From NCBI RefSeq assembly GCF_003702705.1, contig NZ_QZMN01000008.1:124001-188000 (forward strand): a stretch of DNA of 64,000 nt. Direction: 5' to 3'. Each line of letters starts with the position of its first letter. The first letter of the stretch is position 1. The notes under the pieces are model-generated. The model saw only the letters and a list, made by a program, of their open reading frames with translations, ran no database searches and was not told the origin of the DNA. Made by a program: the position numbers and the translations under genes. Shown here one piece after another: positions 12,977-16,955 of this stretch. Origin of the DNA: Ornithinimicrobium cerasi. GTDB lineage: Bacteria > Actinomycetota > Actinomycetes > Actinomycetales > Dermatophilaceae.

Positions 12977-14590
12977 TCAGCCGCGCGCGAGGCTGGAGAG
13001 GTCGAAGGACTCCTTGATCGCGTTCTCCGGCAGCCCGGTGATGTCGAGGTCGGCGACCATGAGGTTGGGCAGCAGGAAGAGGAAGTCGGCGGCGGCGTCC
13101 TCGCTGATCAGCGCCGCGGCCTCCTGCATCTTGCTCACCTGCTCCTCCTCGGTGCCGGTGTCGGCCTCCTCGAGCAGCGCCTGGATCTCCTCGGTGCCGT
13201 AGGTCGTGTAGTAGTCGGGGTTGCCGAAGACGCTGGCCATGTCGCGCGGCTCGACGTGCGCGACGATCGACATGTCGAAGTCCTTGCTGGTGAAGACCGT
13301 CTCCAGCCACGCGGAGGGGAACTCCAGCTCGTCGACGGTCACGTCGAAGCCGGCCTCCTCCAGCATCGACTCGACGACGGTGCCGCAGGAGACGGCGTAG
13401 GGCAGCGTCGGGATGCGCAGCCGCAGCGCGGTCCCCTCGGCCCCCGCCTCGGCGAGCAGGCTCTGCGCCTGCTCGGGGTCGAAGGGGTAGTCGCCGGTGC
13501 GGTCCTCGTACCAGGGGTCGGTGGGCGGTGCCATCGAGCCGATGAGGGTGCCGCGGCCGGCCCAGCAGGTGTCCATGAGGGCCTGGTGGTCGATCGCGTG
13601 CCGGACCGCCTGCCGAACCAGGGGGTCGGCGAGCGGCATACCCTCCGTCTGGTTCATCGACAGGACGACCTCGCCGTTGGTGGTGCCCTCGACGATCTGG
13701 TAGTCGCCGCCCTCGAACTCCACGAGCGACTCCGGGGCCTGCACGGTGGAGACGACGTCGATCGCGTCGGTGAGCATCGCGTTGTTGAGCGCGTTGGCGT
13801 CCCGGAAGTAGTGCATCTCCACGTCGGAGAAGTACGGGACGTCCCCGTGGTAGTCCTCGTTGCGCTCGAGGGTGATGCGCGAGCCGCGCTGCCAGTCGGT
13901 GAAGAGGTAGGGGCCGGTGCCGACCGGGGTGTTGGCGAGGTCGTCGACCCCCTCGGTGTCGAACATCGCGCCGACCCGGGTGGTGAGGGCGTAGAGGAAG
14001 CGGTTGCTCGGCTGGGAGAGGGTGATGACGACGGTGCCGTCGTCGGGCGCCTCGACCGTGTCGACCACGTCCAGCTGCGCCTTGAGGCTGATGGTCCAGG
14101 CGTCCGACTTCACCCGCTCGAGGCTGAACACGGCGTCCTCGGCGGTGAACTCCGAGCCGTCGGAGAAGGTGACGCCGTCCTTGAGGGTGAAGGTGTAGGT
14201 CAGGCGGTCCTCGCTGACCTCCCACTCCTCGGCGAGCGCGGGGACGATCTCGCCGCTGTCCGCGTCGACGGTGACGAGGGTCTCGTAGACGTTGTCGAGC
14301 AGCAGCTGGGGGATGGCCGCACCGTCGGTGGTGGTGAAGTCGAGACTGGCCGGCTCGGCGACGAGGCCGACGCGCACGGTCTCGTCGCTGCCGCCGGGCG
14401 CCGCGGTGCCGCTGCCGGTGGACCCGGTGCCGTCGTCCGTGGCGGTGCCGCCGTCGGCGCCCTGCGTCCCGCTCCCGGTGCTCTCCGGGTCCGAGCCTGC
14501 CCCGGCGTTGCACCCCGCGAGGAGGGCCGTCGTGGTGATCGTGGCGAGCAGGAGGCGCGTCCTCGGCGACGTGGTCATGCGCTGCATCAT
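12977..14590 (-). CDS. dppA: Peptide-binding lipoprotein, DppA-type (SBP_bac_5)
   Basis: 537 aa from ATG 14590, or 533 aa from the in-frame ATG 14578; no clear ribosome site decides. A lipoprotein signal is plain: TRLLLATITTTALLAGC, with the lipobox Cys at about residue 25, then a Ser/Thr/Gly-rich linker to about 60. The SBP_bac_5 fold follows, with LAEEWEVSEDRLTYTFTLKDGVTFSDG and VRQAVRHAIDHQALMD. It captures substrate outside the membrane for DppBCDF. It heads the operon, and the unusual 32-bp repeat array lies directly upstream of its start. Confidence 0.92.
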   Translation of the reverse strand: MMQRMTTSPRTRLLLATITTTALLAGCNAGAGSDPESTGSGTQGADGGTATDDGTGSTGSGTAAPGGSDETVRVGLVAEPASLDFTTTDGAAIPQLLLDNVYETLVTVDADSGEIVPALAEEWEVSEDRLTYTFTLKDGVTFSDGSEFTAEDAVFSLERVKSDAWTISLKAQLDVVDTVEAPDDGTVVITLSQPSNRFLYALTTRVGAMFDTEGVDDLANTPVGTGPYLFTDWQRGSRITLERNEDYHGDVPYFSDVEMHYFRDANALNNAMLTDAIDVVSTVQAPESLVEFEGGDYQIVEGTTNGEVVLSMNQTEGMPLADPLVRQAVRHAIDHQALMDTCWAGRGTLIGSMAPPTDPWYEDRTGDYPFDPEQAQSLLAEAGAEGTALRLRIPTLPYAVSCGTVVESMLEEAGFDVTVDELEFPSAWLETVFTSKDFDMSIVAHVEPRDMASVFGNPDYYTTYGTEEIQALLEEADTGTEEEQVSKMQEAAALISEDAAADFLFLLPNLMVADLDITGLPENAIKESFDLSSLARG

Positions 14591-14636
14591 CGTGCATGCC
14601 GCCCGCCCCCCGCCACCCACCCCTGCCGAGACCACG

Positions 14637-15010
14637 CTGTGCGCGCCCCCCATCCCACCGAGCCCACGGTGTGCGCGCCCCCCATCCCACCGAGCCCACG
14701 GTGTGCGCGCCGACGCCTCCACCGAGCCCACGGCCTGCACGCGCAGTCCCAACGCGCAGGGCGCGCTGAACACGGGGTGGCTCGGTCAGCGCTGAGAGCC
14801 ACACACCGTGGGCTTGGTCAGCGATGAGAGCCACACACCGTGGGCTTGGTCAGCGATGAGAGCCACACACCGTGGGCTCGGTCAGCGCTGAGAGCCACAC
14901 ACCGTGGGCTTGGTCAGCGCTGAGAGCCACACGCCGTGGGCTCGGTCGCGGTCTGGGCCGCCACACCGTGGGCTCGGTGGGGCTGGGGGCGGGCACACCG
15001 TGGGCTCGGC
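14637..15010. repeat. Mirror-image array of 32-bp repeats in a divergent intergenic region
   Basis: The 505 bp between dppA and fadE5 hold no gene but two sets of 32-bp tandem units. Left set: 14637-14668, 14669-14700 and 14701-14732, each ending in ACCGAGCCCACG. Right set: 14794-14825, 14826-14857, 14858-14889 and 14890-14921, with decayed copies to about 15010, each containing CACACCGTGGGCT(C/T)GGT. The shared core of the right set is the reverse complement of that in the left set, so every core reads in the same sense as the gene it faces. Outside the core, left and right units differ. All frames are open through the units only because of the repeats, so the apparent peptides are not genes. 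There are no spacers, so this is not CRISPR. Confidence 0.93.
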
Positions 15011-15042
15011 GGGTCTTGCCTCCGACGTGCCGGTAGTCCACA

Positions 15043-15090
15043 CTGGTTACCAGGAAGTAAGTACCGCGAGTACCGGATACCTGGAGGCAG
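15043..15090 (+). promoter_or_regulatory. Upstream control region and ribosome site of the FadE5 gene
   Basis: CTGGT-T-ACCAG (15043-15053) is an 11-nt palindrome with odd centre, followed by repeated TACC/GTACCG steps. A strong GGAGG (15083-15087) lies 8 nt before the GTG at 15096. The palindrome is a candidate binding site for a fatty-acid-responsive regulator; that is inference. Confidence 0.5.
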
Positions 15091-15095
15091 TCGCC

Positions 15096-16955
15096 GTGGG
15101 GCACTACAAGAGCAACGTTCGCGACATCGAGTTCATGCTGTTCGACGTGCTGGAGCGCGGCGGCGTCCTCGGTCGGGCACCCTTCGAGGAGATCGACGAG
15201 GAGACCGCCCGCGACGTGCTGCGCCAGGTGGCCGGGCTGGCGGAGGGGCCGGTCGCCGAGTCCTTCCTGGAGTCGGACCGCAACCCCCCGGTCCTGGACC
15301 CGCGGACCGGTACCGTGACGATGCCGCAGGCCTTCCAGGACTCCTACCGGACCTGGATCGAGCACGAGTGGTGGCGCCTGGAGGTCCCGGCGGAGCTGGG
15401 CGGCATCAGCGCCCCGCCGACCCTGGCGTGGGCGGTGGCCGAGATGGTCCTCGGCGCCAACCCCGCGGTCAAGATGTACTCCGCCGGGTTCAGCTTCGCC
15501 ACCGTCCTCTACCGCCTCGGCACCCCCGAGCAGCAGCAGTTCGCCCAGCTCATGGTCGACCGGCGCTGGGGCGCGACGATGGTCCTGACCGAGCCGGACG
15601 CCGGCTCCGACGTAGGCGCCGGCCGCGCGCGGGCCGTCCGGCAGGAGGACGGCACCTGGCACGTCACCGGCGTCAAGCGCTTCATCACCAGCGGCACGGC
15701 GCCGTTCTACGACAACGTCATCCACTTCGTCCTCGCCCGCCCCGAGGGGGCCGGCCCGGGCACCAAGGGGCTGTCCCTGTTCGTCGTGCCCGGGAAGCAC
15801 GTCGACCTGCGCACCGGTGAGCTCGGCGCCGAGAACGGCGTCCAGGTCGCCGGCATCGAGCACAAGATGGGCCTGAAGGTCTCCACCACCTGTGAGCTGC
15901 GCTTCGGGGAGGACCCCGACCGGCCGGCGGTCGGCTGGCTGGTCGGGGAGGTGCACGACGGCATCGCCCAGATGTTCCGCGTCATCGAGTACGCCCGGAT
16001 GCTGGTCGGCACCAAGGCCATCGCCACCCTCTCGACCGGCTACCTCAACGCCCTCGACTACGCCCGGGAGCGCGTCCAGGGCGCCGACCTCACGCAGATG
16101 AGCGACAAGACGGCCCCCCGCGTGACGATCACCCACCACCCCGACGTGCGCCGCTCCCTCATGCTGCAGAAGTCCTACGCCGAGGGGCTGCGCGCCCTGA
16201 TGCTCTGGACGGCGAGCTTTCAGGACACCGTCGCGGCGGCCCAGCAGGCCTCGGGCAGCGAGGCCGTGGCCGCGGAGAGCCCGGCCGCGATGGCCGCCCG
16301 CGTCAACGACCTCCTCCTCCCCCTCGTCAAGGGGTGCGGCTCCGAGCGCGCCTTCGTGCTGCTGGGCACCGAGTCGCTCCAGACCCTCGGCGGTTCCGGC
16401 TTCCTGCAGGACTACCCGCTCGAGCAGTACGTCCGCGACGCCAAGATCGACTCCCTCTACGAGGGCACCACCGCCATCCAGGGGATGGACTTCTTCTTCC
16501 GCAAGATCCTGCGGGACAAGGGGGTGGCCCTGGGGTATGTCGCGGGTCAGGTCCTGCAGACCGTGTCCGCCCAGGTGGACGACGGGCTCGGGGACGTCCG
16601 CGGGGCCGTCGGCCGCGCGCTCGGCGAGGTCCAGCAGATGGTCGAGTTCCTCACCGGCCGGGCGCTGGCGTCCCAGGCCGAGCCGACCCAGGTGTATGCC
16701 GTGGGGCTGGGCACCACGCGGCTGCTCCTCGCGGCCGGGGACCTGCTCATCGGGTGGCTGCTGCTGCGCCAGGCCGAGGTGGCCGCACGCCTCCTGGACA
16801 CCGGCGAACGGCCCGGCGACACGGCATACCTGGAGGGGAAGGTGGCGGCTGCCCGGTTCTTCGCCGGCGAGGTCCTGCCCCGGCTGGGGGCGGACCGACG
16901 CACGATCACCGCGCCCGACCTCTCGCTCATGGACCTCCCGGAGGAGGCCTTCTGA
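15096..16955 (+). CDS. Acyl-CoA dehydrogenase, FadE5-like
   Basis: 619 aa, longer than the usual 380-aa dehydrogenases and matching the FadE5 group of about 610 aa. The N-terminus [16 protein letters not shown] is characteristic of that group. The FAD/substrate motifs [10 protein letters not shown] and [10 protein letters not shown] are at about 165-200, the catalytic-base region [14 protein letters not shown] is at about 450, and a C-terminal helical extension follows. It catalyses the first oxidation of beta-oxidation, with broad chain length in the mycobacterial relative. The GTG at 15096 was chosen for its GGAGG ribosome site; the open frame extends upstream only through the repeats. Confidence 0.9.

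Follow-up and report, generated by a model that had tools for sequence, protein, structure and literature searches.

An intergenic family of inward-paired 32-bp repeat arrays in Ornithinimicrobium

Two opposed blocks of a 32-bp unit, lying between a dppA-like and a fadE5-like gene of Ornithinimicrobium cerasi, belong to a genus-wide family of such intergenic arrays. The site belongs to a 64,000-nucleotide stretch of contig NZ_QZMN01000008.1 (positions 124,001 to 188,000), here called the window. Closely neighbouring blocks of opposite sense face each other, whatever the direction of the genes beside them. Our tentative reading, held at a little short of even confidence and drawn from sequence comparison, is that they may be BIME-like, helically phased protein-binding arrays at the ends of transcription units, where they would act as a boundary of topology or termination and not as an operator of the adjacent genes.

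The array between dppA and fadE5

The two blocks, of 4 and 7 to 8 units, occupy window positions 14613-15013 in an intergenic region of 505 bp. The features of the site are listed below.

12977..14590, minus strand: dppA-like gene, SBP_bac_5 solute-binding protein; start taken from our own gene caller
14613..14737, plus strand: left block of four 32-bp units with a C-rich tract before it; plus-strand sense ACCGAGCCCACGGTGTG
14625, 14657, 14689, 14721: core starts of the left block, the first degenerate
14738..14770, no strand: middle stretch separating the blocks; by eye, no sequence in common with the middles of other pairs
14771..15013, minus strand: right block, 7 clear units and 1 degenerate; sense ACCRAGCCCACGGTGTG on the minus strand
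14802, 14834, 14866, 14898, 14930, 14962, 14994: core 17-mers of the right block
15040..15087, plus strand: array-free stretch upstream of fadE5, ACACTGGTTACC...GTACCGCGAGTACCGGATACC; by eye, similar upstream of many fadE5 orthologues
15096..16955, plus strand: fadE5-like gene, acyl-CoA dehydrogenase

TRF reports period-32 arrays at 14611-14733 (3.8 copies) and 14779-15009 (7.2 copies). A position-weight scan found 11 units in total, assigning the four left-block cores at the starts listed above to the minus strand and the seven right-block cores to the plus strand, and a later motif scan gave 4 + 8 units. The intergenic region holds 128 repeated 9-mers at a lag of 32, against a maximum of 2 in 500 mononucleotide shuffles, and the array is far beyond chance. 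An earlier note, made from the sequence alone, had described at least seven 32-bp units in two blocks, and TRF, the position-weight scan and the lag-32 shuffles all confirm it. The reversal of the core between the blocks, also described there, is borne out by a 17-mer common to both, which is an exact complement from block to block; the right block repeats the left-block unit with small changes on the minus strand, and the innermost 9-mer cores lie 48 bp apart. As that note had further seen, the blocks are unlike outside the core but keep the 32-bp step, the spacers differing between blocks and partly also within them. Its extent of 14637..15010 captures the array but begins too late, omitting the first degenerate left unit at 14625.

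The main guess of the earlier note was that the blocks are binding sites regulating both divergent genes. Position between dppA and fadE5 speaks for such an operator, as does the fact that 3 of 30 fadE5 loci (own genome, G019 and G024) are preceded, within 500 bp, by an array of 2 units or more, the block nearest fadE5 facing the same way in all three. Two relatives, G002 and G026, carry the same divergent pair but lack the array, their genes being about 120 bp apart, and the window array is therefore an optional addition to the promoter region. A GTACC-like stretch upstream of fadE5 is recognisable in both relatives and lies outside the array in the window, where the array-free stretch at 15040..15087 is the likely promoter or operator of fadE5. 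The 32-bp unit is moreover found at many unrelated genes, often at their 3' ends, and the genes flanking arrays include, by Pfam, alpha-amylase, MOSC, BacA/uppP, DDAH, GNAT and others; no fixed position and orientation at the promoters of a coherent gene set was found. With arrays rare in divergent regions and no orientation rule in tandem contexts (see below), an operator role for dppA and fadE5 is unsupported, and we regard it as highly improbable. The alternative in the same note, a structural element spreading by 32-bp steps, fits better with a unit that recurs at many unrelated gene pairs of the genome and genus. The search for the core in the genome and relatives that the note had proposed returned many intergenic copies, as a repeat would, while the fixed gene orientation that would have supported regulation was absent. 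By eye, short tandem repeats of about 22 bp were also seen in the fadE5 neighbourhoods of G004, G027, G025 and G017 (L209, L212, L208 and L206), the last of which holds a longer tandem repeat next to fadE5.

Distribution, unit and period of the family

A 14-mer core, allowing at most one mismatch, occurs 34 times in the own genome, compared with 4 times for the reversed pattern, and 23 of the 34 copies are clustered at 32-33-bp steps. Further double arrays lie on contigs C22, C66 and C63, with shorter single arrays on C63 and C66. Three copies of ACCGRNNNC at 32-bp steps, again with at most one mismatch, were matched in 26 of the 32 genus genomes, up to 194 times when overlapping matches are counted (reversed-pattern control, 0-8 per genome). 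At least 5 matches were obtained in 16 genomes, 1-3 in 10, which is inside the control range, and none in 6; a stricter two-unit pattern matched in 9 of the 32. Match-rich species include G024, G010, G020, G001, G011 and G004, and match-free ones G014, G021, G025, G026 and G028. Since matches are few or lacking in 16 of the 32 genus genomes, half of the total, any function of the arrays is dispensable. An order-wide sample gave matches in 7 of 248 genomes including the own genome, with control hits in 4 of the 248; of the genomes from beyond the genus, none of the 18 sampled within the family matched, and 6 of the 229 from elsewhere in the order did. In a scan of public genome contigs, from which records close to the own genome may be excluded, nine matching stretches were named as eight contigs from a single MAG of Actinomycetales and one contig from Ornithinimicrobium sp. 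F0845. The window array matched no phage or plasmid in the search made against them, and no description of a 32-bp array family appeared among the matches listed in the portion of the open literature searched.

For the family as a whole, 124 blocks of at least 3 units were counted in 1.68 Mb of loci from 8 genomes, against 4 in the reversed-sequence control. Most loci were chosen by motif match, so that counts per genome are not a census; stretches taken regardless of content were 400 kb each of G010 and G011, 200 kb each of G026 and G028, and 40 kb each of G032 and G059. Read along its sense strand, the genus-wide unit consists of a C-rich, G-poor tract (about -13 to -2) followed by ACCGRGCGC-like bases, the constant core being ACCGAGCCC in the own genome and ACCGAGGAC in G001. 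Bases +9 to about +17 are genome-specific, with ACGGTGTG in the own genome, GCGGNGTTGC-like bases in G024, CGCGAATGGT in G029 and CGCAGATGGT in G011 (3 arrays only), and conservation weakens past about +17 on the inner side of the unit. Genomes thus share the core bases and the 32-bp step but differ in the second half of the unit, which turns over from one genome to the next.

Counted blocks hold 3-10 units, head to tail and in one orientation. Same-strand steps of up to 100 bp were exactly 32 bp in 164 of 178 cases, 33 bp in 9 and another length in 5, a tally that, like the TRF periods, had no preset limit of 31-33. Inside the 124 blocks, where only 31-33 was permitted by construction, 376 steps were 32 bp, 23 were 33 bp and 7 were 31 bp. 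The top repeat lag of 9-mers (range 10-119) was also 32 in the window and in the 400 kb each of G010 and G011; the lag-32 count was 6 and 0 in the 200 kb each of the array-poor genomes G026 and G028, and 0 in the 40 kb each of the sister genera G032 (N letters excluded) and G059.

A second family in G010, with a unit of about CGAGACCTCTACGAAGTTGCGGGGCGGCCGTA and unrelated in sequence, forms 8 arrays of at least 2 units in 400 kb (reversed control, 0). TRF, without a preset period, gave 32 for five of its arrays and 31 for one, whereas the step scan of this family admitted only 31-33 by construction. From two unrelated families with one period we infer a constraint, of about three helical turns, over descent alone. 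The period may nonetheless reflect descent plus duplication and no constraint, an argument that the second family weakens but does not remove. Arrays of the second family (ACGARACCTCTAYSAAA...) are intergenic, as at L227:1362-1487 and at G010:C1:159306-339567 (8 arrays in the first 400 kb), and often adjoin stop codons. Seven of the 8 G010 arrays are oriented like followers of gene 3' ends, 5 of them between convergent genes; by eye, 2 tandem arrays fit the 3'-end orientation, each of the 5 convergent arrays is closer to the gene that fits, and 1 of the 8 is divergent. The 3'-end orientation rule may therefore hold in this second family. Separately, about three 32-bp units with CCGGGCCCGGT directly follow an apparent stop codon at L152, around 1500-1600, in a genome from another family of the order (G082), which could be chance or a parallel case.

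Gene ends, inward-facing pairs and site history

With respect to genes, which were called with a home-made codon-usage caller whose start sites are uncertain, 47 of the 124 blocks lie in convergent, 54 in tandem and 8 in divergent contexts; 12 are inside ORF calls, some of which may be miscalls, and 3 are at contig edges. Array-holding intergenic regions are enriched between convergent genes and depleted between divergent ones (40 convergent, 48 tandem and 6 divergent vs 60, 187 and 94 in the background; chi-square p = 3e-8), where the arrays come from 8 genomes, some of their loci being orthologous to each other, and the background from G010 and G011 only, in regions of 60 bp or longer. With only 6 of 94 array-holding regions divergent, the dppA/fadE5 site of the window is unusual. 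For 77 blocks the sense-upstream gene lies on the strand of the block; the median distance from its stop codon to the first unit is 15 bp, and 36 of the 77 distances are 9-24 bp. A gene-linked 3'-UTR rule, which looked strong at first, was dropped as blocks in tandem contexts point along the genes in 30 cases and against them in 24 (p = 0.50), the unpaired ones splitting 16 to 14; closeness to the stop codon was retained. At L111:2588-2718 and L134:6841-6938, a block lies within an ORF, at its 3' end; the stop codon of this ORF overlaps the start of uppP, and in G024 as in G010 the reading frame continues uninterrupted through the array.

The orientation of blocks follows a different rule. There are 27 neighbouring pairs closer than 1.5 kb, 1 of the same sense and 26 of opposite sense, and all 26 of the latter face inward, with the plus-sense block on the left and the minus-sense block on the right; they are not fully independent, some being orthologous, such as the DDAH pairs in G008 and G024. 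At 1.5-20 kb the order looks random, with 1 inward, 4 outward and 5 same-sense neighbours (inward share of opposite-sense neighbours, 1/5). An earlier, looser scan of single PWM hits up to 2.5 kb apart had given 25 inward and 6 outward neighbours. In no more than 7 of the 26 pairs do both blocks share one convergent intergenic region; the rest include tandem and divergent contexts, among them the window pair, so that inward pairing is independent of the direction of flanking genes. Blocks thus favour gene ends in their position, and the partner block, not the gene, sets their orientation. The earlier note had read the cores as pointing the same way relative to the gene that each precedes, which is true of the window site because an inward-facing pair sits there between divergent genes, but does not stand as a general gene-linked rule.

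Gaps within pairs fall into two groups, of 20-182 bp (16 pairs) and 660-1296 bp (10 pairs), and each of the longer gaps encloses a gene, nine of them ordinary and one AbiEi_4-type. At L015:6307-6729 an inward pair combines two subfamilies, with ...GGGCTCGGT on the left and ...GTCCCCGGT on the right, and paired blocks therefore need not have one origin.

Several sites are common to more than one species. Among 27 loci viewed at the 3' side of a gene that we take to be PurL-like, those of G010, G024 and G020 have blocks in one shared position, and apparent remnants in G006 and G019 keep the core but differ in the remainder. Both blocks surrounding the DDAH gene are common to G008 and G024, and the block before uppP is common to G010 and G024, with a nearly identical unit. 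Mean identity over positions 9-24 is 0.55 within genomes and 0.38 between them. The orthologous DDAH blocks, at 0.39 and 0.35, are no more alike than other arrays of the same genomes (0.39-0.63), and three other orthologous pairs are more alike (0.53, 0.75 and 0.84), namely the uppP pair and two G012/G029 pairs whose orthology was judged from gene lengths; the value of 0.32 for the PurL-like block of G010 (L138) is unreliable, as that block was taken one unit too early. The whole reads as retention of sites across species with partial homogenisation through each genome.

Possible roles of the arrays

In the reading that we tentatively prefer, a DNA-binding protein with sequence specificity would dock on each 32-bp unit as one contiguous site of about three helical turns. 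Copies of such a unit would therefore align on one helix face and form a polar protein array. At the ends of transcription units this array could act as a topological or transcriptional boundary, as proposed for BIMEs, whether by recruitment of gyrase or a nucleoid protein or as a polar roadblock. Arrays would grow and shrink by unit duplication, persist at the same sites across species and become partly homogenised within a genome. The exact helical step, the contiguous unit, the one-way blocks and the position near transcription ends all fit a protein array.

BIME-2, known from enterobacteria and Pseudomonas, is the closest functional analogy. PMC2817692 describes REP/BIME elements as extragenic repeats that are short, high in copy number, specific to a genome and clustered at regular spacing, with proposed roles in chromosome organisation and termination. 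The arrays resemble them in all these traits, being multi-copy, regularly spaced and extragenic, with 109 of 124 blocks intergenic between two called neighbours. They differ in that units run head to tail in one-way blocks, with 26 of 26 opposite-sense neighbours facing inward, whereas REPs occur in alternating orientation. They also lack a genus-wide palindrome: a test with swapped spacers was null, and the spacing of ACC/GGT half-sites, judged by eye on the consensi, differs between genomes. A cognate RAYT, sought with the PF01797 profile only, was found in 0 of 32 genus genomes and in 5 of 14 control genomes. According to PMC6379681, BIME-2 elements bind gyrase, and there and in PMC2817692 the gyrase-binding motif is given as showing a phased 10-bp variation in G/C and cleavage sites as enriched downstream of highly transcribed operons. 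PMC6379681 also reports that motif scores downstream of E. coli genes are no higher than elsewhere and that the gyrase signal at BIME-2 rises when transcription is blocked, and a gyrase role driven by transcription is therefore no simple fit. The inward rule, in turn, is unexplained by a plain gyrase-site model. The TAACTGA repeats of Beggiatoaceae, as described in PMC4679880, are likewise abundant intergenic direct repeats of a few lineages, and differ in sequence and taxon.

The inward inverted pairs suggest a transposon reading, doubtful in itself, in which a block pair would be a non-autonomous selfish repeat, MITE- or REPIN-like, with inward ends, several transposase-binding sites at each end and no host function. 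A putative enzyme would spread such a repeat, whose copies would be tolerated close to the 3' ends of genes and purged from promoters; this agrees with the avoidance of divergent regions, the great differences in match counts among species and the 505 bp of the window region where two relatives with the same gene pair have about 120 bp. Ends of the Tn7, Mu and Tn402 type carry direct repeats of a binding site, the two ends being mutually inverted, and inward pairs with internal direct repeats resemble such multi-site ends. Unlike them, the 26 pairs gave no convincing sign of target-site duplication (best shared word 1.54 on average vs 1.28 for mispaired flanks, a difference given without a significance test), and the three pairs with shared 5-mer flanks did not have them adjoining both outer units. 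By eye, the middles of the 16 short pairs have no conserved internal sequence, and the ten middles of 0.66-1.3 kb are the nine ordinary genes and the AbiEi_4-type one. The absence of PF01797, the Y1/RAYT transposase family, and the retention of some sites across species also tell against this reading. A mobile gene cassette, suggested by the AbiEi_4-type gene between inward blocks of the own genome (L009:5994-7025) and by MOSC/SnoaL (L010), was rejected; other pairs enclose uppP/BacA, GNAT, an ABC ATPase, a glyoxalase-fold protein, DDAH, a cyclase domain or no gene, and such varied genes make no common cargo. AbiEi_4-like genes may also follow PurL in G004, G028 and G000 (L279, L283 and L287), judged by eye from nucleotides only.

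It is unlikely that the blocks act in RNA, as transcription terminators or 3'-end elements of the transcript that enters them, through Rho loading at the C-rich tract or through hairpins. Closeness to stop codons and convergent enrichment agree with such a role, and so do the C-rich, G-poor outer tract and the C-rich spacers in G000 and G001; an inward pair would stop transcripts from both sides and, in tandem and divergent contexts, would block antisense transcription. Multi-shape intrinsic terminators, arranged in tandem or converging, likewise follow stop codons and mirror each other between convergent genes. The arrays differ from them in lacking hairpin coevolution, and 24 of 54 tandem-context blocks oppose the genes. 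No hairpin conserved in the sense strand was found in the swap test of 71 blocks, spacer-core pairing being no better than with swapped spacers (p 0.61-0.91), and over the same 71 blocks folding is slightly poorer for the sense than for the antisense strand (p = 0.025). An RNA hairpin had looked promising from covariation of columns 6 and 19 (85% Watson-Crick), and was set aside on these two results. The C bias is missing in G010, the unpaired tandem-context blocks split 16 with and 14 against the genes, an exact 32-nt step is not needed by an RNA element, and nothing reached the gathering cut-off in an Rfam search. Also unlikely is a convergent-orientation boundary, in which two polar phased arrays would face each other across an intergenic gap or single gene (20 bp-1.3 kb) and jointly serve as an insulator or a loop anchor; the 32-bp step would then be an architectural constant reached separately by unrelated families, and the recognition half would co-evolve genome-wide with a putative protein. 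A neutral minisatellite grown by replication slippage would account for the near-identical tandem units inside several blocks, but is already disfavoured, and hardly probable, given the inward rule, one dominant period in two unrelated families, a core conserved across species and the retention of sites. Nor are the arrays CRISPR-like, as spacers recur within several blocks instead of being unique between identical repeats.

REP/BIME-type repeats go together with RAYT transposases and with palindromes. The array family fills their niche with neither a RAYT nor a palindrome found, adds the inward-pair rule, and has a 32-bp step, of about three helical turns, in common with a second sequence family. 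If the arrays are of the selfish kind, they would imply an undescribed way of spreading short repeats. If the protein-array reading is true, they would provide a testable case of sequence-encoded boundaries of transcription or supercoiling in actinobacteria.
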